Below are positions 9,766 through 49,013 of a DNA stretch of 64,000 nucleotides, piece by piece. Numbering within the stretch: the stretch's first letter is position 1; each line of letters starts with the position of its first letter. The notes under the pieces are model-generated. The model did not search any database and was not told the origin of the DNA. It worked only from the letters and a program-made list of their open reading frames with translations. The stretch is taken from assembly GCA_024638265.1 (NCBI GenBank), contig JAHEKQ010000008.1, forward strand, positions 1-64,000, written 5' to 3'. Source of the DNA: Flammeovirgaceae bacterium. Its GTDB lineage: Bacteria > Bacteroidota > Bacteroidia > Cytophagales > Cyclobacteriaceae. A program made the position numbers and the translations under genes.

Positions 9766-9842
9766 GTGTATAATTTATGGTCGCTAAATTGGTCATGAAT
9801 AGATTTTATTGCAATGGGATTGTTATGAAAGGTAGGGTTAGA

Positions 9843-9984
9843 TAACAGCTAACAGCTAACGACTAACAGTATATTGAGGCCGAATTAGTTGCGCCCGGAA
9901 ATGAGATAATAGATGATAGATGATAGAGAATAATTTCGTGGAATCCTTGTCCCCTTGTCTCCTTGTCTCCTCGTCCCCTTGTCC
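9843..9984. repeat. Intergenic tandem-repeat cassette A (heptamers then octamers)
   Basis: Three blocks lie between the divergent sorbosone-dehydrogenase and ABC-F genes. 9843-9870 has four heptamers (TAACAGC, TAACAGC, TAACGAC, TAACAGT). 9904-9931 has four heptamers (AGATAAT, AGATGAT, AGATGAT, AGAGAAT). 9945-9984 has five octamers (CCTTGTCC, CCTTGTCT, CCTTGTCT, CCTCGTCC, CCTTGTCC). The first two match words of the cassette near 32.2 kb in reverse complement, and the third matches the one near 42.57 kb. They sit directly upstream of the ABC-F start at 10001. Confidence 0.9.
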
Positions 9985-10000
9985 CTATCTTTGCCGCCCA

Positions 10001-31898: not shown

Positions 31899-32250
31899 TT
31901 GAAAAAATATATACTGTTAATGATCACTTATAAAAAAATGGTAACCACGGTTTTCATTCCCTAATTGTGAAAAATAGTGAATTCAGACCAATAATTACAG
32001 TTTAATATTTAAAACCATCCTCTCAAAAAATACTCTGGCAAGTAAGATTTCAGGTCTTAGCCGTATAAATATAGAAGATTAATGCGGAAAGTTAAAATTT
32101 GGAGGAGTTCAGCGGTTCAGCAGTTCAGCAGAAGGTTCACGAGTTGTGGGTTCACGTGACTGAGGCAGTAGATGGTAGGTGGTAGGTTATCTATCATCTA
32201 TTATCTAACTGTTAGTTGTTAGTTGTTAGTTGTTAGCTATTAGCTGAAAC
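31899..32250. other. Intergenic region with AT-rich upstream part and repeat cassette B
   Basis: This 352-bp gap holds no gene. 31899-32100 is AT-rich and should carry the minus-strand promoter of the small/giant surface-protein operon, but no clear TAnnTTTG element with TTTG at 19-21 bp was found. 32107-32244 is the repeat cassette listed separately, next to the stop of the 162-residue protein gene. Confidence 0.6.
32107..32244. repeat. Intergenic tandem-repeat cassette B (octamers then heptamers)
   Basis: 32107-32130 has three octamers (GTTCAGCG, GTTCAGCA, GTTCAGCA). 32134-32160 has TTCACG words. 32168-32188 has three heptamers (GTAGATG, GTAGGTG, GTAGGTT). 32189-32209 has three (ATCTATC, ATCTATT, ATCTAAC), and 32210-32244 has five (TGTTAGT three times, TGTTAGC, TATTAGC). 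The TGTTAGT and ATCTAT blocks are the reverse complement of words in cassette A. The TTCACG part followed by GACTGAGG is the reverse complement of CCTCAGTC and GTGAAC words at 42586-42609. Confidence 0.9.
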
Positions 32251-32739
32251 CTAATACTTCCGATTAATAATCTCACCCAAAATAATCGCCTTGGCAGCGT
32301 TCTGGGGTGAAGTGAGCATTTCCCGTACTTCTTTTGCAATCTCATTTTCTTCTTCCTCTACTTCAAAGACGGCAAAGTGCTCAAATTTGGGACGGTCTGA
32401 ATCACTTCCTAAATCCGGTGATTTAGCAGCCTCCCGAATGGATTCTTCGTATACCTGCTGAACTTCATCATCATCCGGGATGGAACTCCTGAAGTCGTAA
32501 TCCCTGGCGGGTTCGGGCTCAGGTTTTCTTTCCGTCCTGACCGGTTCAGGCTTCTTTTCCCTCCCTTTCCCCTGAAATTCCTTCAGAAGGTCTTCAAAAG
32601 TTACAGTGGGCTGGGACTCAGTTTCGGCTTCCCGTTCCGTAGATTTAGGGGCTTTAGGAGCTTTTTTCTTGAGCAATCTGGAGAGGATTGCAACAAGGAC
32701 AAAAACGATGTACAGGATTAATTCAAAATCGAAATCCAT
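32251..32739 (-). CDS. Hypothetical single-pass membrane protein
   Basis: The 162-residue product has one N-terminal helix (DFELILYIVFVLVAILSRLLKKK) with no cleavage site, then a highly charged Pro/Glu/Arg-rich cytosolic region (KAPKAPKSTEREAE, RTERKPEPEPARDYD) and an acidic tail with helix EVREMLTSPQNAAKAIILGEIINRKY. This shape (TM plus disordered charged region plus conserved C-terminal SPQNAAKAIILGEII) is seen in many Bacteroidota genomes without known function. It is divergent from smc and shares its promoter region. Confidence 0.7.
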   Translation of the reverse strand: MDFDFELILYIVFVLVAILSRLLKKKAPKAPKSTEREAETESQPTVTFEDLLKEFQGKGREKKPEPVRTERKPEPEPARDYDFRSSIPDDDEVQQVYEESIREAAKSPDLGSDSDRPKFEHFAVFEVEEEENEIAKEVREMLTSPQNAAKAIILGEIINRKY

Positions 32740-36415: not shown

Positions 36416-36425
36416 GAGAAGTAAA

Positions 36426-36486
36426 AGTGCAGAGTGTAAAGTGTAGAGTGTAAATCTAGTGATGAACTGCTGATCTGTTGAACCCC
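36426..36486. repeat. Intergenic tandem-repeat cassette C
   Basis: The convergent gap between smc and the MscS gene has four heptamers at 36426-36453 (AGTGCAG, AGTGTAA, AGTGTAG, AGTGTAA) and three octamers at 36463-36486 (TGAACTGC, TGATCTGT, TGAACCCC). TGAACCCC also ends cassette D at 42649, and TGAACTGC is a rotation of the reverse complement of the GTTCAGCA octamer in cassette B. Confidence 0.85.
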
Positions 36487-37380: not shown

Positions 37381-37446
37381 GAATAGAAATATCGAAAAAG
37401 TGTAGAGATTTACAAAATCAACATTTTACCACGGGATATAATTATG

Positions 37447-37494
37447 TAATTAATTACAGGATTAATTACATAAATAATTACACAATTAATTACA
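37447..37494. repeat. AT-rich 12-bp tandem repeat
   Basis: Four copies of a 12-bp unit read TAATTAATTACA, GGATTAATTACA, TAAATAATTACA and CAATTAATTACA, followed by a decayed fifth (37495-37506). The TAATTA core is self-complementary, so single strands can fold. It fills the gap between the MscS start (37380) and the DUF885 stop (37516). Confidence 0.8.
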
Positions 37495-37515
37495 TAATTA
37501 TTATTTGGATATTCG

Positions 37516-39283: not shown

Positions 39284-40015
39284 TCACTTTCGGGTTCTAA
39301 ACCGGTTCATTACAAGGGCTGCGGCTATGGATACATTCAGGGATTCAGCTTTACCGTAGGCCGGGACGGTCAGAGGTTTATGCTTTATTTTTAGTAGGGC
39401 TTCTGAAATCCCATGACTTTCGCTTCCCATTATGACAACACAAGGCTCAATCAACTCAGCATCTTCCAATGATTCACCCGATAAATCAGCCGCCCATATT
39501 TCCCCCTTGAAATTCTTTAGGTATAATTCAAGATCACAATAATGCACAAATACCCTTGAAAATGAGCCCATGGTTGCGTTGATAACCTTTGGGTTGAAGA
39601 ACTCAACTGTGTTTTCCGAAGCGACTATTTGTGAAATACCAAACCAATCGGCGGTCCGAATGATGGTTCCAAGATTGCCCGGGTCAGATACCCGGTCCAG
39701 GGCAAGAATAAGTCCTCGTTCCCCCGGGGCGGGAAAATCCCTTGTCTTAGCCACTGCAATCCCACTATTGTTTGTTTTAAAAGTACCTAATCCACTGAGT
39801 TCCTTTTCTGTAGACCGGTAAAGTTCAATACCCTTATCTTCAATACTCTCTAGAAACCCGGGGACGCCCACGATGAAATTCACCTCGAAATCTGAATTCA
39901 ACAGCTCAGAAATATTCTTTGCCCCTTCTACCAAAAACGATTGTTCCTGGACCCTGTATTTCTTTAATTGCAGGGATTTGACGAATTTTGCAATAGATTT
40001 AGGGAGCGGTTCCAC
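39284..40015 (-). CDS. SpoU/TrmH-family RNA 2'-O-methyltransferase
   Basis: The 243-residue protein has an N-terminal RNA-binding domain (FVKSLQLKKYRVQEQSFLVEG) and a C-terminal SPOUT fold with the three motifs LALDRVSDPGNLGTIIRTAD (about 113-132), VVIMGSESHGIS and NVSIAAALVMNRF. It transfers methyl from SAM to the 2'-hydroxyl of an RNA ribose; whether rRNA or tRNA is unknown. The start codon is GTG, only 3 bp from the divergent ATG of the surface-antigen gene, so its promoter must lie within that gene. Confidence 0.92.
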   Translation of the reverse strand: MEPLPKSIAKFVKSLQLKKYRVQEQSFLVEGAKNISELLNSDFEVNFIVGVPGFLESIEDKGIELYRSTEKELSGLGTFKTNNSGIAVAKTRDFPAPGERGLILALDRVSDPGNLGTIIRTADWFGISQIVASENTVEFFNPKVINATMGSFSRVFVHYCDLELYLKNFKGEIWAADLSGESLEDAELIEPCVVIMGSESHGISEALLKIKHKPLTVPAYGKAESLNVSIAAALVMNRFRTRK

Positions 40016-40018
40016 TTG

Positions 40019-42412
40019 ATGCGATTATTTTTAATTTCTCTGGTGATCTTGTCTTTTTTCACCTCCTGCTCCAGTACCCGGTACCTGGATGATGGTGAAA
40101 AACTCCTATTTAAACAAAATATCAGGAACGCCAAAAATTTTGACCGCTACACCCTCGAGGAGCTTTATGTGAGCCGTCCGAATCGGAGATTTCCTCCCTA
40201 CGCTGCCATCTATAATCTGGGATTGAAGAAATACGACGAATCCAAATTTGAACGGAAAAAAGCAGAAGTAACCGAAAAATACGAATCGAAGATCGCCCAA
40301 ACCGACAAAGAGAAAAAGAAGCAGCGGCTTCGTACAAAATTACAAAATTCAATCACCCGCCTAGATGATAAGATCCGGAATGGAAACACCTTAATGCAAT
40401 GGGGAGAACCGGTTGCAGTTTACGATAGCACCGAGATCAATCGCAGTCGAAGAAACTTTGAAAATTACATCTTTAATCGTGGTTATTTCAACGGGAAGGT
40501 AGATACTAAAATCACTGAGAGTAGAAGTGAAAAGAAGGTTTCTGTCGAATATATTATTAAAGCAGGCCAGCCCTACCGTATAGACACGTTCTTCTTTCGT
40601 TCGCCAGACCCTACTATTATGAAGACCCTGCTGAATTTTAAAAAGGAGTCGTTTATCCGGGAGGGAGAGATATACAGGCAACAAAACATGGTCAGGGAGC
40701 GGGAAAGACTGGAATTTTTAATGAAAGATCATGGCTATTTTGACTTCAGCCGTCAGTATATCTCTTTTGACCTGGATACTGGCAGATCAGATAATATAAG
40801 ACGTGTGGCCATAAGGGCCAATATTAACCAGCCCTCCCGGGGAACTCACAAGCAGTACAGGATCGATTCTATGAATTTCATAATTACAGCAGGTTATGAA
40901 ACCGGAAATGATAAATCAAAGAAAGATCGCTACAACGATATCAACTTTAATTTCTTCGAGGACATTTTCAGCCCAAAAATGTTGGATCGGCGGATTTATG
41001 TAGATGTTGACAGTCTTTACAGCAGGAGTAATACCCTGCTAACTCAGAGACAACTGGCCAATCTCAATAATTTCAAGTTCATTAATGTCAATTACGATAG
41101 TTCAGGGGGTAGGTTCATAGCGAATATCTTTACAAGGCCGCTCGATCGCTACCAGTGGTCACATGAGCTGGGTGCGAATGCAACACAGGGTATTCCCGGA
41201 ATCTTCTACAGTCTTTCCTTCATCAAGAGGAATATATTCAAAAGCTTTGAGAACTTTGAGATCAGCGGCAGGTATGGTATTGATGGGGTGGCCACTCCCA
41301 CCGGATCTATTTATCGAAACCGTGAATTCGGTGTAGACATGAAGTTATATTTTCCCCAATTCATTATTCCGCGAGGGGGAAGGCTGGCCGTGAATCTGGG
41401 TATACTCAATCCACAAACAAGGTTGCAGGCGGGATTTACCAATATCAATCGCTCGGATTATCAACGCGAGAATATCACCTTTGCGAATACATTGAATTGG
41501 GAAGGAAGAAATAACGATTTCTATGCCTTTTCTATCACAGAACTCGGGGTGATACGCACAGGCAACATCTCGGACGGATTCCAGGCGATACTCGACCAGA
41601 ATTCCCGCTTGCAGAGTGCCTTCAATAATTCCTTTGTTACCGATATGAGCTTTACTTTCTACCGTAGTCGCTTGTTGAATGAAGCCAACCCGGATCAAAA
41701 CTCATCCAGGTACTTCAGGGCAAGGCTAGAATCCGGGGGAACACTTCTTAATCTCTACGGAACCGGGCTTTTGGAGAATGAGGGGCTTGAGTACTTTAAA
41801 TACCTTAGGATCGACGTCGACTATAGTCAAACTATACCCGTTTCAAGATCTGCAAAGGTGGCTTACCGGCTCAACCTGGGGGTGGCTGCACCCTACGGTG
41901 AAAACAGGACGCTTCCCTATGAAAAATTCTTCTTTGCAGGTGGCAGCAGTGGAATCAGGGCCTGGGCACCCCGGCGATTGGGACCTGGAAGCTATACCCC
42001 TATCGACCCTGAGACTAACCAGGTGGCTTACACCTTTGAACAGCAGGGAGAGATCCTACTCCAGGCGAGTTTCGAATACCGGAAAGACCTCATTGGCTTT
42101 ACGGAATATGCTCTTTTTATCGACGCAGGGAATATTTGGAATTTCTACAACGATGCCTCGCGACCGGGTGGCCAGTTCAGCGGTGACTTCTATAAACAGA
42201 TTGCGGTCGGATCCGGCCTCGGTCTGCGTTTCGATTTTAGCTTTTTGGTTTTGCGACTCGATATCGGTGTAAAAACCCTCGATCCCGCCCGCCCCTTCGG
42301 CAAACGATTTATCCTGAATAAAGGCTTCTTCGACGCCCCCTTTGATACCTATAAGGGTATCTTCCGCAATGATATCATCATTTATAACATCGGTGTGGGG
42401 TATCCGTTTTAG
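40019..42412 (+). CDS. BamA/TamA-family outer-membrane protein with lipoprotein signal
   Basis: The 797-residue product begins MRLFLISLVILSFFTSC, a lipoprotein signal, followed by SSTRYLDDGEKLLFKQN, then POTRA-like repeats with a charged Lys-rich stretch about 80-135, and a 16-stranded Omp85 barrel in the second half. Barrel motifs are GGSSGIRAWAPRRLGPG (around 645), the conserved lid-loop motif, and GIRFDF-type strands ending in YNIGVGYPF. In Bacteroidota such lipid-anchored BamA-like proteins (TamL/LptE-like) work with TamB to insert outer-membrane proteins. The ATG at 40019 is used; longer starts have no signal. Confidence 0.9.
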   Translation: MRLFLISLVILSFFTSCSSTRYLDDGEKLLFKQNIRNAKNFDRYTLEELYVSRPNRRFPPYAAIYNLGLKKYDESKFERKKAEVTEKYESKIAQTDKEKKKQRLRTKLQNSITRLDDKIRNGNTLMQWGEPVAVYDSTEINRSRRNFENYIFNRGYFNGKVDTKITESRSEKKVSVEYIIKAGQPYRIDTFFFRSPDPTIMKTLLNFKKESFIREGEIYRQQNMVRERERLEFLMKDHGYFDFSRQYISFDLDTGRSDNIRRVAIRANINQPSRGTHKQYRIDSMNFIITAGYETGNDKSKKDRYNDINFNFFEDIFSPKMLDRRIYVDVDSLYSRSNTLLTQRQLANLNNFKFINVNYDSSGGRFIANIFTRPLDRYQWSHELGANATQGIPGIFYSLSFIKRNIFKSFENFEISGRYGIDGVATPTGSIYRNREFGVDMKLYFPQFIIPRGGRLAVNLGILNPQTRLQAGFTNINRSDYQRENITFANTLNWEGRNNDFYAFSITELGVIRTGNISDGFQAILDQNSRLQSAFNNSFVTDMSFTFYRSRLLNEANPDQNSSRYFRARLESGGTLLNLYGTGLLENEGLEYFKYLRIDVDYSQTIPVSRSAKVAYRLNLGVAAPYGENRTLPYEKFFFAGGSSGIRAWAPRRLGPGSYTPIDPETNQVAYTFEQQGEILLQASFEYRKDLIGFTEYALFIDAGNIWNFYNDASRPGGQFSGDFYKQIAVGSGLGLRFDFSFLVLRLDIGVKTLDPARPFGKRFILNKGFFDAPFDTYKGIFRNDIIIYNIGVGYPF

Positions 42413-42421
42413 GTGAGATAT

Positions 42422-42649
42422 AGGAAGCAGGAAGCAGGAAGCAGGAAGCAGGAGGCAGGAGGCAGGAGGCAGGAGGCAGGAGGCAGGAGGCAGGAAGCAG
42501 GATACCGGATACCGGATACCGGATACAGGATACCGGATACCGGAGATCCGTATAACCTCCACCTTGTCCCCTCGTCCCCCTGTCCCCTCAGTCTCGTGAA
42601 CCCGTGAACTTGTCTATTGAACCTCTGAACTTTTGAACCTTTGAACCCC
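42422..42649. repeat. Intergenic tandem-repeat cassette D, largest
   Basis: 42422-42498 holds eleven heptamers (AGGAAGC four times, AGGAGGC six times, AGGAAGC once). 42499-42540 holds six (AGGATAC/CGGATAC). Then 42562-42649 is 88 bp of eleven octamers in one unbroken register: CCTTGTCC, CCTCGTCC, CCCTGTCC, CCTCAGTC, TCGTGAAC, CCGTGAAC, TTGTCTAT, TGAACCTC, TGAACTTT, TGAACCTT, TGAACCCC. The octamer words drift from CC-rich to TGAAC-rich while the register stays exact. It fills the gap between the outer-membrane-protein and metal-permease genes. Confidence 0.92.
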
Positions 42650-42687: not shown

Positions 42688-43566
42688 ATGGAGAGTGCAC
42701 TTTGGATCATATTGGCAGGAACGCTGGTAGCAACCAGCTGCGGGATTTTGGGTTGCTTTCTGATTTTGAGGAAAATGGCAATGGTTGGGGATGCTATATC
42801 ACATGCTGTCCTGCCGGGGATTGTTATTGCATTTCTAATTTCCGGGAGCCGGGATTCGGTAACCATGCTCATTGGTGCAGGTCTCATTGGAATACTCACT
42901 ACCTTCCTCATCGAATTTTTTCATAAGAAAGGAAAGCTTCAGACCGATGCTTCGATTGGTGTGACTTTCACCTGGCTGTTTGCTATTGGGGTTATAATGA
43001 TCACGGCATTTGCAGGCCAGGTAGACCTGGACCAGGATTGCGTGCTCTATGGAGAGATCGCCTATGTGCCCATAGACCTGTGGATTACCGATGGTGGTAC
43101 CGTGATGGGTCCCAGGGTAGTTTACATAGCAGGAACCGTCCTTGTCCTTAATATTCTGTTTGTTTCAATATTCTATAAAGAGCTGTTTCTCACTACGTTT
43201 GATCCCGCTTTTGCCAGTGCTATTGGTATTTCAACGGCATTATGGCATTACCTCTTGATGGGAGCGGTATCCGTAACGACAGTGGCCTCTTTCGAGTCAG
43301 TCGGGGCCATTCTAGTGGTGGCTTTGCTTGTAGCACCCCCGGCAACTGCCTACTTATTGACCCACAAATTGAAACAAATGATCCTTATCAGTGTGATCCT
43401 GGGAGTGTTAATAAGTATTAGCGGCTACTTCATAGCCCTTTTGTTTGACGGCAGTATTGCCGGAGCAATGGCGATTGCAGCCGGATTCTTTTTTGCGCTC
43501 AGTTATCTGTTTTCTCCTCAGAATGGTATCCTTATAAAAAAGAAAATCGATATGGTCGAGGCATAA
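42688..43566 (+). CDS. Metal (Zn/Mn/Fe) ABC transporter permease, ZnuB/MntB family
   Basis: The 292-residue protein has about eight transmembrane helices and the family motifs CFLILRKMAMVGDAISHAVLPGI at about 22-44 and VGAILVVALLVAPPATAYLL around 204-225, which form the ABC-3 coupling site. It transports Zn, Mn or Fe into the cytosol together with an ATPase and a metal-binding protein. Neither is next to it, so the subunits must be elsewhere. A 40-bp hairpin follows directly after the stop. Confidence 0.92.
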   Translation: MESALWIILAGTLVATSCGILGCFLILRKMAMVGDAISHAVLPGIVIAFLISGSRDSVTMLIGAGLIGILTTFLIEFFHKKGKLQTDASIGVTFTWLFAIGVIMITAFAGQVDLDQDCVLYGEIAYVPIDLWITDGGTVMGPRVVYIAGTVLVLNILFVSIFYKELFLTTFDPAFASAIGISTALWHYLLMGAVSVTTVASFESVGAILVVALLVAPPATAYLLTHKLKQMILISVILGVLISISGYFIALLFDGSIAGAMAIAAGFFFALSYLFSPQNGILIKKKIDMVEA

Positions 43567-43624: not shown

Positions 43625-46381
43625 TTAATTTGCTCTTGATAACATTAACTCACGGATTGCAGCCTGTGCTGCAGAGAGTCTGGCGATCGGAACCCTAAAT
43701 GGAGAACAGCTCACATAATCCAGCCTTGCACTGTGCAGGAAGTTCACCGAACGAGGGTCACCACCCTGCTCACCGCAAAGTCCGATTTTCATACCGGGCC
43801 TGGTTTTTCTACCCAATTCCACTGCCATCTTGATCAGTTTACCCACTCCCAGTTCATCGATAGTTTCAAAGGGATTCACGCTGAGTATCCCCTGTTCGAG
43901 ATATACCGGCAGGAATTTACCGGCATCATCCCTGGAATAACCATAGGTCATCTGGGTCAGGTCATTGGTACCGAACGAAAAGAATTCTGCGCTCTCCGCG
44001 ATTCTATCAGCCGTGAGTGCTGCCCTTGGCACCTCTATCATCGTACCCACTTTGTAATCGAGACGCAGCTTCCTTTCCTTAAAAATGGATTCAACTTCAT
44101 CCCGTACAATCTGTTCCTGGAATTCCATCTCAGTCTTGGTTCCGGTTAAGGGTACCATGATTTCAGGCATGGCCCGGATTCCCTTTTCCTTGAGATTTAG
44201 GGCCGCTTCAATAATTGCCCTTGCTTGCATCCTGGTGATTTCAGGGTACGTGTTACCCAATCTGCAGCCACGGTGGCCCAACATCGGGTTAACCTCGTGA
44301 AGTTGATGAGACCTGTTCTCGATTTTTTCTATCGGTATTCCCAGGTCTTCACTGATCTTTGCCATAGCCTCACGGTCGTTTGGAATAAACTCATGTAGAG
44401 GAGGATCTAGCAACCTGATGGTAACAGGAAGGTCCTGCATGGCTTCAAAAATACCCTCGAAGTCACTTCGCTGCATGGGGAGAAGTTTCAATAAGGCAGC
44501 CTCCCGTTCTTCGGTAGTTTCTGCCATGATCATTTCCCTCATTGGAGTGATCCTCTCTTTTGCAAAGAACATATGTTCGGTCCTGCATAGTCCAATTCCC
44601 CGCGCACCAAATTCCCTGGCAATCCTGGCGGAGTCAGGGGTATCCGCGTTGGTTCGAACCTTGAGTTGGGCATGGTCATCGGCAAGTTTCATCAACCTTC
44701 CAAAATCTGAATTCAGTTTTGGAAGTACAGTATCTATTTTGCCTTCAAATACCTCTCCGGTTGATCCATTCAGAGAAATCCAATCACCTTCTTTGTAGGT
44801 ATTGCCATCAATTATCACTTCTTTTTTCTTGTAGCTGATTCTCAGACTTCCCACACCGGAAACACAACATTTCCCCATACCTCTCGCTACAACAGCGGCA
44901 TGACTGGTCATACCTCCACGTGCCGTCAGGATTCCCTCAGCGGCATCCATCCCCTTAAGGTCATCTGCAGATGTCTCTACACGTAAAAGGATCACTTTTT
45001 TACCTGCATCTTTCCATTGTTCAGCCTCATCCGAGAAAAAGACCAATTGGCCAGTTGCAGCTCCCGGAGACGCGGGTAATCCCTTGGCAATATTTTTAGC
45101 TTTTTTAATAGCCTCGACATCAAAGACCGGATGTAGTAGTTCATCCAGTTTTTTAGCATCTAGCCTCATTAGGGCTGTATTCTCATCAATCAGACCTTCA
45201 TCGAGCATGTCCATGGCAATTTTCACCATAGCTTCCCCGGTCCTTTTACCATTCCTGGTCTGAAGCATCCAAAGTTTACCTTCCTGGATGGTGAATTCGA
45301 GATCCTGCATGTCCCTGAAATGATCTTCAAGGATTTTCTGGTTTTCATTTAATTGCCCGAAAACCTCCGGCATGTATTCTTCTAACGATGGATAGGATTT
45401 TTTTCTCTCATCCTCGGTCAGGCCGGCAAAAACAGCCCAGTTCTTCGAACCTTTTGTGGTAATTTGCAATGGAGTTCTGGTACCTGCAACAACATCCTCA
45501 CCCTGGGCATTAACGAGATATTCTCCATTGAAGACTGCTTCGCCTGTGGCGGCATTTCTGGTAAATGCGACACCGCTGCATGAATTATTGCCAAGGTTTC
45601 CAAAAACCATGGCCTGTACATTGACTGCTGTTCCCCACTCATCGGGAATGTCGTTTAACTTCCTGTAAAAGACAGCACGCGGTATATTCCATGACTCGAA
45701 AACTGCCATAATTCCATTCCAAAGCTGGGTCCATGGATCATCGGGGAATTCCTGTCCGGTGGCATGCTCAATCATCTCTTTGAACCTGGATACTACAAGC
45801 TGCAGGTCTTCAAGACTTAGTTCCTGGTCGGATTTAGCCCCTGATTTTTCCTTGATCTCGTCCATAATGGTCTCAAAGGGATCTTCATCAAGGTTCAGAT
45901 ATGTGTTGACACGCATTACAACATCACCATACATTTGGATAAACCTGCGGTATGAATCCCAGGCAAACCATTCGTTATTAGCTTTTTCAGCCAGACCCCA
46001 AACAGTTTCTTCGTTCAGTCCAATATTCAGAACAGTATTCATCATTCCCGGCATTGAATCCCGGGCACCTGACCTCACGGAGATAAGGAGTGGATTCTTC
46101 ACCGATCCAAATTCTGCACCCAGTAATTTTTCCATATGTTGGACGCCATTGGTGACTTCAAGTGTTAGTGCCCTTACCACAGTATCCTTTCCGAATTCCT
46201 GGTATTCATTACACACTTCGGTTGTAACCGTAAAGCCGGGAGGCACCGGTATGCCCAATGAAGCCATCTCTGCAAGGTTGGCCCCTTTTCCACCGAGAAG
46301 TGGCTTCATCCTTGAATTACCTTCATTTTTTCCTCCACCAAATAGATATACTCTCTTTTTGAGATTTACTGCTGTTTCCAT
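43625..46381 (-). CDS. ppdK: Pyruvate, phosphate dikinase
   Basis: The 918-residue enzyme converts pyruvate, ATP and phosphate to phosphoenolpyruvate, AMP and PPi, or the reverse. It has the N-terminal ATP-grasp (GGKGANLAEMASLGIPVPPGFT at about 28-50), the swivelling phosphohistidine domain GGMTSHAAVVARGMGK with the catalytic His494, and a TIM-barrel domain with GLCRTEHMFF and GLCGEQGGDPRSV; Cys in this last motif is the acid/base in known PPDKs. A perfect hairpin terminator follows. Upstream is a 199-bp gap to the helicase gene in which I see no repeat or clear promoter. Confidence 0.96.
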   Translation of the reverse strand: METAVNLKKRVYLFGGGKNEGNSRMKPLLGGKGANLAEMASLGIPVPPGFTVTTEVCNEYQEFGKDTVVRALTLEVTNGVQHMEKLLGAEFGSVKNPLLISVRSGARDSMPGMMNTVLNIGLNEETVWGLAEKANNEWFAWDSYRRFIQMYGDVVMRVNTYLNLDEDPFETIMDEIKEKSGAKSDQELSLEDLQLVVSRFKEMIEHATGQEFPDDPWTQLWNGIMAVFESWNIPRAVFYRKLNDIPDEWGTAVNVQAMVFGNLGNNSCSGVAFTRNAATGEAVFNGEYLVNAQGEDVVAGTRTPLQITTKGSKNWAVFAGLTEDERKKSYPSLEEYMPEVFGQLNENQKILEDHFRDMQDLEFTIQEGKLWMLQTRNGKRTGEAMVKIAMDMLDEGLIDENTALMRLDAKKLDELLHPVFDVEAIKKAKNIAKGLPASPGAATGQLVFFSDEAEQWKDAGKKVILLRVETSADDLKGMDAAEGILTARGGMTSHAAVVARGMGKCCVSGVGSLRISYKKKEVIIDGNTYKEGDWISLNGSTGEVFEGKIDTVLPKLNSDFGRLMKLADDHAQLKVRTNADTPDSARIAREFGARGIGLCRTEHMFFAKERITPMREMIMAETTEEREAALLKLLPMQRSDFEGIFEAMQDLPVTIRLLDPPLHEFIPNDREAMAKISEDLGIPIEKIENRSHQLHEVNPMLGHRGCRLGNTYPEITRMQARAIIEAALNLKEKGIRAMPEIMVPLTGTKTEMEFQEQIVRDEVESIFKERKLRLDYKVGTMIEVPRAALTADRIAESAEFFSFGTNDLTQMTYGYSRDDAGKFLPVYLEQGILSVNPFETIDELGVGKLIKMAVELGRKTRPGMKIGLCGEQGGDPRSVNFLHSARLDYVSCSPFRVPIARLSAAQAAIRELMLSRAN

Positions 46382-46580
46382 GTCATTTGTGAGTTAAAAT
46401 TCAAGGATAAATTTACCTTCTGGAATGCTCGAAAAGAGTGACTTAGATCACCCCGGTTTATGATTTTGGGAGAGGAGATTCTGCTAAACAAAACAGGTTT
46501 TCTGAGCCTGCGATATTCAATGGAATTTAACGCGGAGTTAGTATGTTTGAAATTAGTTCAGTAAGCGGGAAATAAGCCGG

Positions 46581-49013
46581 GTGGCAAGTACGGGTATAGA
46601 ACATGCACTAAAATGGTTCAAAGCCAACAAATGGGAACCTTTTGAGTTTCAAAAGGAAGCATGGCACAGGTATGATCGAGGTGAAAATGGAATTATTAAT
46701 GCACCTACAGGTAGTGGAAAAACCTATTCACTCCTGGTTCCGATAATCCTGGGAATCGCCAATGAGGGAAATTCTGTAAAAGGACTCAGGGCTATCTGGA
46801 TTACCCCGATCAGGGCGCTGGCAAAAGAGATCGAAGAGTCAGGACGCAAGGCACTTTCCGGGATGGGGCTTGATAACATCAAAATTGCTATCCGGACAGG
46901 GGACACCACGGCAACCCAAAAGAAAAAAATCATCAACGACCCTCCGCATATACTCATCACCACACCTGAAAGTCTTCACCTGATGATGACTTACCGGCAC
47001 TACACCTCGTTCTTCAAGAATTTGAAGGTCGTAGTCGCCGACGAATGGCACGAACTCATGGGCTCAAAGCGGGGAGTTCAGGTTGAACTTGCCCTGTCAC
47101 GACTCAGGAGTATAAGCGGTGAGCTGAGGGTTTGGGGGATATCTGCTACGATTGGAAATATGGAGGATGCTGCGACCACTTTGCTGGGCCCTTCAATTGA
47201 AAATCCATTGATCATCCGATCAGAAATTGAAAAAAAACTAGAGGTAATCTCAATACTCCCCGATCATATCGATAGTCTCCCCTGGGCCGGTCACCTCGGG
47301 ATTCACCTGATCAGAAAAATCATCCCACTCCTCCAGGGGAGTCAATCCAGCCTGGTATTCACGAATACCCGGAGTCAGTGTGAGATCTGGTACCGGAAGA
47401 TACTGGAAGTAGCCCCCGACCTGGCGGGTGTGATCGCCATGCATCACAGCGCAATAAGCAAGGAACTCCGAAATTGGGTGGAAGATGCCCTTCACGATGG
47501 GACGATTAAGGTGGTTGTATGTACCTCCAGCCTTGATCTTGGCGTCGACTTCAGGCCGGTAGAGACCATCGTCCAGATCGGAAGTCCAAAGGGCATTGCC
47601 CGGTTCATGCAAAGGGCGGGGCGCAGTGGCCACCAGCCGGGTGCTGTGAGTAAGATTTATTTTGTGCCTACTCACACCCTGGAATTGATCGAAGCTGCCG
47701 CGTTGCGTTCGGCCATTCAGTCAGGGATTGTTGAGGAGCGCATCCCCTACCGAAATTCTTATGATGTACTAATCCAGTACCTAATCACGATCGGAGTTGC
47801 TGAGGGATTTCGACAGGACCAGATATGGGGTGAAATAAAGCAAACCATGGCATTCAGAAACCTTTCTGAGGATGAGTGGGATTACATTCTTTCATTCGTC
47901 GTCTCAGGTGGTAAAGCACTTGATGCCTATGATGAATTTCATAAAATGATGGTGGATGAAAATGAAATATTCAGGGTCAGCAATAAACAGGTAGCCCTTC
48001 GTCACCGCATGTCAATAGGGACCATCGTTGGAGATAGCGCGGTTAAGATCAGCTATAAGAGTGGGCAGTATATTGGAACGGTTGAGGAGTATTTCATCAG
48101 CAGGTTGAATATCGGTGATGTATTCTGGTTTGCAGGAAGGAGCCTTGAATTGGTGGGATTCAAAGGATTAAACGCTACGGTCAGGAACTCGAAGAAAAAG
48201 GCAGGCAAGATACCCAGTTGGCAGGGTGGCAGGATGTCTTTCTCTGCAGAACTGTCCAAGGTTCTTAGGGATAAGCTGCATGATTTTCATTCGGAATCTT
48301 CAGAAGATCCGGAGATTGAATTTCTACGCCCTCTGATCGAGGTTCAGAATGTATTGTCAGTTCTTCCAACCCGAAATGAATTTCTGATCGAATATCTAAA
48401 AACTCGTGAAGGCTACCACATCTTCATGTATCCCTTTGAAAGTCGAACGATCAATGAGGGTATTGCTGCACTCACCGCATACAGGATAAGCAGGATCACA
48501 CCTATTACCTTCAGTATTGCTATGAATGATTATGGGTTCGAATTGCTTTCTGATACCCCTATTCCAATTCATGAAGCGCTCGAGACAGATTTATTCAGTC
48601 TTGATCACTTGAGCAGGGATATTGAAGAAAGCGTTAACTCCGTAGAAATGGCCAGGAGGCGTTTCCGGGATATTGCAGCCATAGCCGGTTTGGTATTTAA
48701 GGGATATCCGGGTCGACTGGTAAAAGACCGGCATATTCAGAGTTCCGCAGCACTGTTTTTCAATGTCTTCCAGGACTATGAACCTGAAAACCTGCTGTTT
48801 CGCCAGGCATATGAGGAAGTCGCCCATTTCCAACTGGAAGAAAGCAGGATGAGAAGAACACTCGAAAGAATAAATCAGCAGAAAATAATACTCAAGACTA
48901 CGGAACAACCAACACCGTTTTGTTTTCCGATCATGGTGGACGGGATGAGGGAAAGGTTAAGTACAGAAAGGCTCGAAGACAGAATTGATAAGCTCAATAT
49001 CAAGTTCGACTAG
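46581..49013 (+). CDS. Lhr-type DEXH-box helicase (ligase-associated DNA damage response type)
   Basis: The 810-residue SF2 helicase has Walker A APTGSGKTY at 41-49, DEWHELMGSKRG at 154-165 in place of a DEAD box, SATIGN around 185, and the second RecA domain with FTNTRSQCEIWY, VCTSSLDLGVDF and QRAGRSGH (QxxGRxGR type). A C-terminal winged helix/beta part follows. This matches the short Lhr form usually co-operonic with a DNA ligase, exonuclease and phosphoesterase (LigD-associated repair). None of those is here. It begins with GTG, and its end overlaps the symporter gene by 14 bp. Confidence 0.92.
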   Translation: MASTGIEHALKWFKANKWEPFEFQKEAWHRYDRGENGIINAPTGSGKTYSLLVPIILGIANEGNSVKGLRAIWITPIRALAKEIEESGRKALSGMGLDNIKIAIRTGDTTATQKKKIINDPPHILITTPESLHLMMTYRHYTSFFKNLKVVVADEWHELMGSKRGVQVELALSRLRSISGELRVWGISATIGNMEDAATTLLGPSIENPLIIRSEIEKKLEVISILPDHIDSLPWAGHLGIHLIRKIIPLLQGSQSSLVFTNTRSQCEIWYRKILEVAPDLAGVIAMHHSAISKELRNWVEDALHDGTIKVVVCTSSLDLGVDFRPVETIVQIGSPKGIARFMQRAGRSGHQPGAVSKIYFVPTHTLELIEAAALRSAIQSGIVEERIPYRNSYDVLIQYLITIGVAEGFRQDQIWGEIKQTMAFRNLSEDEWDYILSFVVSGGKALDAYDEFHKMMVDENEIFRVSNKQVALRHRMSIGTIVGDSAVKISYKSGQYIGTVEEYFISRLNIGDVFWFAGRSLELVGFKGLNATVRNSKKKAGKIPSWQGGRMSFSAELSKVLRDKLHDFHSESSEDPEIEFLRPLIEVQNVLSVLPTRNEFLIEYLKTREGYHIFMYPFESRTINEGIAALTAYRISRITPITFSIAMNDYGFELLSDTPIPIHEALETDLFSLDHLSRDIEESVNSVEMARRRFRDIAAIAGLVFKGYPGRLVKDRHIQSSAALFFNVFQDYEPENLLFRQAYEEVAHFQLEESRMRRTLERINQQKIILKTTEQPTPFCFPIMVDGMRERLSTERLEDRIDKLNIKFD

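Follow-up and report, generated by a model that had tools for sequence, protein, structure and literature searches.

An intergenic block of heptamers and octamers in a Flammeovirgaceae bacterium, probably one site of a genome-wide population of short tandem arrays

Is the block of short repeats between a BamA-type gene and an ABC-3 transporter gene of a Flammeovirgaceae bacterium a discrete cassette, or is it one of many tandem arrays of the same kind? The block covers positions 42,422 to 42,649 of a 64,000-nucleotide stretch, hereafter called the window (GenBank assembly GCA_024638265.1, contig JAHEKQ010000008.1, positions 1 to 64,000 of the forward strand). A preliminary description, made from the letters alone, had seen in it a cassette switching from heptamers to octamers. 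We consider it probable that the locus belongs to a population of 7- and 8-bp tandem arrays, intergenic, genome-wide and with fast turnover, of the kind known as heptamer simple sequence repeats (SSR) or short tandemly repeated repetitive sequences (STRR).

The heptamer half is made up of two adjoining arrays on the forward strand. Eleven AGGAAGC/AGGAGGC units (42422..42502; Tandem Repeats Finder (TRF) period 7, 11.6 copies, 97%) have a lag-7 identity of 72/74, and they are followed by six GGATACC units (42500..42546), likewise reported by TRF, in the same 7-bp phase and with a lag-7 identity of 37/40. The order of units is AGGAAGC four times, AGGAGGC six times and AGGAAGC once (42422-42498), then GGATACC six times (42500-42541), which are the seventeen heptamers in two adjacent runs originally noted. 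There are 18 GGA triplets between 42423 and 42542, every one of them in the same phase of 7; the heptamer word thus changes without a change of register. The proposal that the period is constant while the word drifts therefore holds for the window heptamers, and it also holds for a pair of length variants, described below, in which about ten different heptamers stand in a single register.

A junction of about 15-20 bp (42547..42561), without 7- or 8-bp periodicity by lag counts, separates the heptamers from the octamers. The latter are on the reverse strand and comprise C-rich octamers resembling CCTTGTCC (42562..42593; lag-8 identity 16/24, p=0.002), two octamers with GTGAAC ends (42594..42609) and an array of about four TTGAACCT units (42617..42649; TRF period 8, lag-8 identity 19/24 in 42618-42649). 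Lag-8 identity in the whole of 42562-42649 was 49/80, against a mean of 22.6 and a maximum of 39 in 20,000 shuffles, and TRF found two weak arrays there (42562-42589 and 42617-42647). The 8-bp periodicity claimed for this part is thereby supported, but the claim of eleven octamers in one exact 88-bp register is not: GAAC is in phase 4 at 42598 and 42606 and in phase 1 at 42619, 42627, 42635 and 42643, the 13-bp step from 42606 to 42619 being a single phase jump 3' of the two GTGAAC octamers. GTC is shifted by 1 bp at 42591. Since any 88 bp can be divided into 11 octamers, the number of octamers is no evidence of register.

The window units stand head to tail with no spacers as in arrays of clustered regularly interspaced short palindromic repeats (CRISPR), and no palindromic ends or terminal inverted repeats, as in repetitive extragenic palindromic (REP) elements or miniature inverted-repeat transposable elements (MITE), were seen here (fold z -0.72) or in aligned loci. 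The block lacks the four runs of GGG or longer of G-quadruplex heptamers of the GGGNATC type, AGGAAGC, AGGAGGC and GGATACC holding at most GG. A search of Rfam gave no match at the gathering score and nothing near one. By TRF and lag-7 counts the heptamer half consists of 7-bp units in direct tandem, as heptamer SSR/STRR do. The unit length of 7 bp is not kept throughout, the period being 8 in 42562-42649 and in 54 of the 137 arrays counted below, and for this reason the octamer half is described as a variant.

The census of arrays covered 950 kb of the 3.63-Mb genome; part of this was picked for GGAAGC matches, and 582 kb is less biased. Arrays were found by a neutral autocorrelation scan for periods 4-24, and a simple script served to call open reading frames (ORFs). 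There were 83 arrays of period 7 and 54 of period 8 in the 950 kb, plus multiples of these periods and little else. The less biased 582 kb contained 37 and 28 arrays, respectively, compared with 0 and 0 in Markov-shuffled sequence. In the 950 kb, 125/137 arrays lie outside ORFs, where 10.5 were expected. Copies beyond the window and an intergenic enrichment, both put forward as checks in the preliminary description, were thus found, and location at many intergenic loci is a property of heptamer SSR. Across the genome, GGAAGCA gave 97 matches and the reversed control 1.

Arrays of both periods occur in one gap in 17 regions versus 7.4 expected (p=1e-4), but the words, their order and the spacing of the co-occurring arrays vary between gaps, which does not agree with a discrete 7-to-8 cassette. 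Consensus words are common to separate gaps in 72 pairs for period 7 and 10 pairs for period 8, compared with 5.7 and 0.5 for letter-shuffled words. Word order is fixed within recurring phrases, for instance TAGCTAAT-AGCTAAC-(AACTAAC)n-AGT and GTAAAAGTGCAGAGTGTAAAGTGT. Transitions make up 44-49% of the unit-to-unit mismatches, and the DNA between arrays has, after masking, a lag-7/8 identity of 0.31 versus about 0.275, a residual excess. The repair genes for MutS1 and the large subunit of ExoVII were both found, which rules out their simple loss as the cause.

The array words are mostly lineage-specific, yet common to loci within one genome. In 60 genomes of the family, the word GGARGCA was present in this genome and one other, and the octamer YTYTGAAC in this genome and two others. 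AACTAAC was found in 9/395 genomes sampled across the phylum; sites of the AACTAAC word (CTAACAACTAAC) number 66 in the present genome, 0 in the relative G007 and 0 in four family members checked. In 333 kb of G020, which belongs to another family, there are 70 arrays of period 7 and 23 of period 8, whose words are for the most part different, and the octamers TCTTTGCG / CGCAAAGA are common to both genomes (L113:11694-11728; L222:1883-1927). The 7- and 8-bp arrays of G020 (L221-L236; e.g. L228:5239-5326 and L233:12569-12693) are often complementary inverted pairs, and the gaps fold strongly. The octamers TCTTTGCG / CGCAAAGA resemble ACGCAAAG/ACACAAAG repeats, which are common in many bacterial phyla. 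In the cyanobacterium Tychonema sp. LEGE 06208 we found AACTAAC with the end AGTG exactly, together with 518 matches of AACTAACAACTAAC. An octamer array adjoins a heptamer array also in G248 and in several IMG/VR contigs, and the 7/8 neighbourhood is therefore not unique to the window. IMG/VR contigs classed as viral (L248-L254) carry one word both as heptamer arrays (GGGTTCA) and, in opposite orientation and at most a few tens of bases away, as octamer arrays (AACCTTTG).

Gain and turnover were seen at individual loci. In G007, the closest relative available as judged by protein identity (53%), the gene order SpoU-BamA-ABC3 is kept with a 121-bp gap and no array, the gap in the present genome being 275 bp. 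At two places in the assembly (L072 = C146:15874; L073 = C171:7948) a locus is present in two versions flanking a 10-N scaffold gap. The L073 arrays are 123 and 158 bp long with identical flanks of 76 and 86 bp, and differ by exactly 5 heptamers; the L072 arrays are 96 and 201 bp long with an identical right flank, and differ by exactly 15 heptamers. All of these whole-unit differences are in register. The pairs are read as variants within the sampled population, and their differences match the expectation from whole-unit slippage or unequal copying; repeated slippage, as suggested in the preliminary description, fits variants that differ by whole units only. Copy-number variation, a further property of heptamer SSR/STRR, is hence seen in two assembly-based variant pairs. 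Gaps of 10 N between array length variants are a useful marker for array polymorphism in metagenome assemblies.

The arrays have a polarity: read 5'→3', the G-rich strand leaves the nearer gene and heads for the middle of the gap. In the window, the G-rich strand of the AGGAAGC/AGGAGGC array is the forward one and points away from the end of the upstream gene, and that of the octamers is the reverse one and points away from the downstream gene. Polarity was counted once per region using our own ORF finder, whose start-codon bias should work against the rule. In total, 103/129 regions conform (p=5e-12): the present genome, in which the rule was first noticed, has 49/65, G020 24/28, G003 2/2, other Bacteroidota 17/18 and Tychonema 3/3, the remaining 13 regions being from IMG/VR contigs (8/13, not significant). 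The rule holds in every gene arrangement (61/78 for same-strand pairs, 26/31 for convergent and 16/20 for divergent ones), and it also holds in regions with a single array (67/84), in a set with only one array for each word (90/118) and for both periods; the control of array-free gaps gave 52-60%. The A-T skew of the same arrays has no corresponding polarity. An out-of-sample test on two Nostocales plasmids gave 13/16 conforming arrays (p=0.02), excluding arrays internal to the CyRepA1 gene of the Halotia plasmid. This annotated replication gene (44349-47906) contains G-rich and then C-rich 7- and 8-bp arrays (L263:45947-46043 and L263:46700-46840).

The polarity rule equals a sense strand that is G-rich after stops and C-rich before starts. 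Sense purine counts in the present genome were 52:16 for 3' ends against 14:31 for starts, and the G-C version of the rule is the general one. For the GGGAATC repeats of Xanthomonas, mean distances of 28 nt to the 5' ORF and 160 nt to the following one are given, and convergent pairs are described (PMC4692102); this spacing and pairing fit the rule and show the same polarity pattern in a third phylum, although the authors of that study state no such rule. As a general statement the polarity appears to be new, as it was not found in a limited literature search. Slippage alone is blind to the position of the nearest gene, so the polarity constrains slippage models, and a rule holding across phyla, in all gene arrangements and in an out-of-sample test constrains any model.

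In the explanation we favour, slipped-strand synthesis or unequal copying would add and remove units, new words would arise by point mutation and spread to adjacent units in register, and ectopic copying would seed word phrases at other sites. The polarity might arise because units are added more easily to a G-rich DNA 3' end that grows away from a gene, or alternatively because selection on transcripts disfavours the opposite polarity; since the rule equals a statement on transcript sense, these DNA-level and transcript-selection causes are inseparable with the present data. The 'switch' from 7 to 8 in the window would then be the place where a G-rich heptamer arm of the upstream gene meets a C-rich octamer arm of the downstream gene. 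A wider version would attribute the 7- and 8-bp arrays of Bacteroidota, cyanobacteria and Xanthomonas to one strand-directed process adding G-rich units to 3' ends that leave genes, with two converging arms per gap and the 7-to-8 switch as their meeting point; this we regard as a rather improbable conjecture.

Several points weigh against the favoured explanation. The sharing of words could reflect biased birth instead of copying. The source of the variant pairs is a metagenome-type assembly with scaffolding and not a set of strains, so that they could be assembly errors, and a simple script supplied the ORFs behind both the intergenic and the polarity counts. In IMG/VR contigs 8/13 regions conform, and the polarity is not significant. 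No gradient of unit purity was found along the G strand of the arrays, which leaves strictly directional growth without support. Finally, a purine-loading version of the polarity rule, true in the present genome and in G020, was rejected as it fails in other lineages.

The arrays may instead be functional elements of RNA or DNA, with a polarity maintained by selection: a G-rich and then C-rich, G-poor stretch 3' of genes, in which the C-rich arm would be a putative Rho loading site that stops read-through, and C-rich leaders that would keep ribosome-binding regions open. We think this possible but doubtful. It agrees with the G-rich sense strand after stops, the C-rich one before starts and the purine counts given above, whereas orthologous sites keep neither the words nor the lengths nor the arrays as such, and neither a folded structure in the present genome nor an Rfam match at the gathering score was found. 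In another alternative, inverted arrays would act as terminator-like hairpins or cruciforms, and G-then-C polarity would be the order of the hairpin arms. The complementary inverted pairs of G020, whose regions fold with a median z of about -2.6 to -3.1, and the convergent pairs in Xanthomonas (PMC4692102) are in line with hairpins, and for G020 they are plausible. In the array regions of the present genome, however, the median z is near 0, and z is -0.72 at the window locus, which rules hairpins out for both, and single-array regions have the polarity too (67/84); as a general account hairpins are very unlikely.

If broken intergenic DNA ends gained short G-rich repeats at their 3' termini, in a telomere-like or repair-associated manner, and the two G-strand extensions were then joined head to head, the product would have the G-inward polarity that is seen on both sides. 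We find this quite improbable: unit purity has no gradient along the G strand, single arrays are common, word drift fits slippage too, and no templating RNA or enzyme was identified, no search for either having been made. A dispersed MITE- or REP-like mobile element carrying heptamer arrays would account for the recurrence of fixed-order phrases (TAGCTAAT-AGCTAAC-(AACTAAC)n-AGT; GTAAAAGTGCAGAGTGTAAAGTGT), but terminal inverted repeats, target duplication and constant ends were not seen and the phrases combine freely, and such an element is likewise quite improbable. Contig ends do lie in arrays more often (4/84) than random 60-mers do (0.6%), as an assembly artefact would have it. With 0 arrays in shuffled sequence and arrays of the same kind in the closed Halotia and Nostoc plasmids, chance or artefact is extremely unlikely.

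The upstream gene (39968..42412, forward strand) encodes an outer-membrane protein with a POTRA domain, of the Omp85/BamA type (Pfam PF07244). Its stop codon is 9 bp 5' of the heptamer array, and the arrays occupy the 275-bp gap to the downstream gene (42688..43566, forward strand), which encodes an ABC-3 family metal transporter permease (Pfam PF00950, E=1e-49). Related arrays are found at three other sites of the window: the heptamers TAACAGC and AGATGAT with the octamer CCTTGTCC immediately upstream of an ABC-F gene (9837..9990), the octamer GTTCAGCA with the heptamer GTTAGTT (32099..32252), and the heptamer AAAGTGT/AGAGTGT on the forward strand 3' of an SMC gene, in a convergent gene pair (36423..36455). 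The window also holds an AT-rich 12-bp tandem repeat, TAATTACATAAT (37438-37504), whose core TAATTATGTAATTAAT is found in about six intergenic regions of the sampled genome and may be a dispersed regulatory site.

After decades of reports on heptamer arrays, the usual guess at their mechanism is still that the polymerase slips over about 7 nt; an idea cited in PMC4679880 is that 7 nt is the contact length of the polymerase. That study describes TAACTGA and mixed heptamer arrays, with several heptamers per gap, in Beggiatoaceae, cyanobacteria and five Bacteroidetes. The preliminary statement that the locus has no described counterpart was accordingly too strong, intergenic mixed heptamer assemblages of Bacteroidetes being among those described. 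Some repeats of 6-9 bp are enriched in prokaryotic phyla (PMC12699852). A limited literature search gave no description of the octamer partner, nor of its combination with a heptamer register kept through a change of word.

The assemblages of PMC4679880 resemble the present arrays in being intergenic, lineage-specific, accompanied by further heptamers in the gap and missing from close relatives, and differ from them in that the present genome has word drift within arrays. The heptamer repeats GGGAATC of Xanthomonas and GGGGATT of Nostoc (PMC4692102) are likewise G-rich, intergenic, nearer to the 5' ORF, found in convergent pairs and variable in length between species, but their GGG runs are proposed to form quadruplexes, whereas the window words have at most GG. 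Archaeal Borg tandem repeats (PMC9879509) are also recent, fast changing and variable in copy number within a population; their units differ from those studied here in being perfect and, at 18-21 nt in the examples, longer, and about half lie in genes. Cyanobacterial STRR/heptamer SSR share 7-bp units, intergenic location and many loci with the present arrays, and AACTAAC...AGTG stands exactly in Tychonema; in the present genome octamers are nearly as common and stand in shared gaps, and the word set is mostly different. The heptamer arrays are thus of a known kind, found in cyanobacteria, Xanthomonas and Bacteroidetes, here with an octamer partner.
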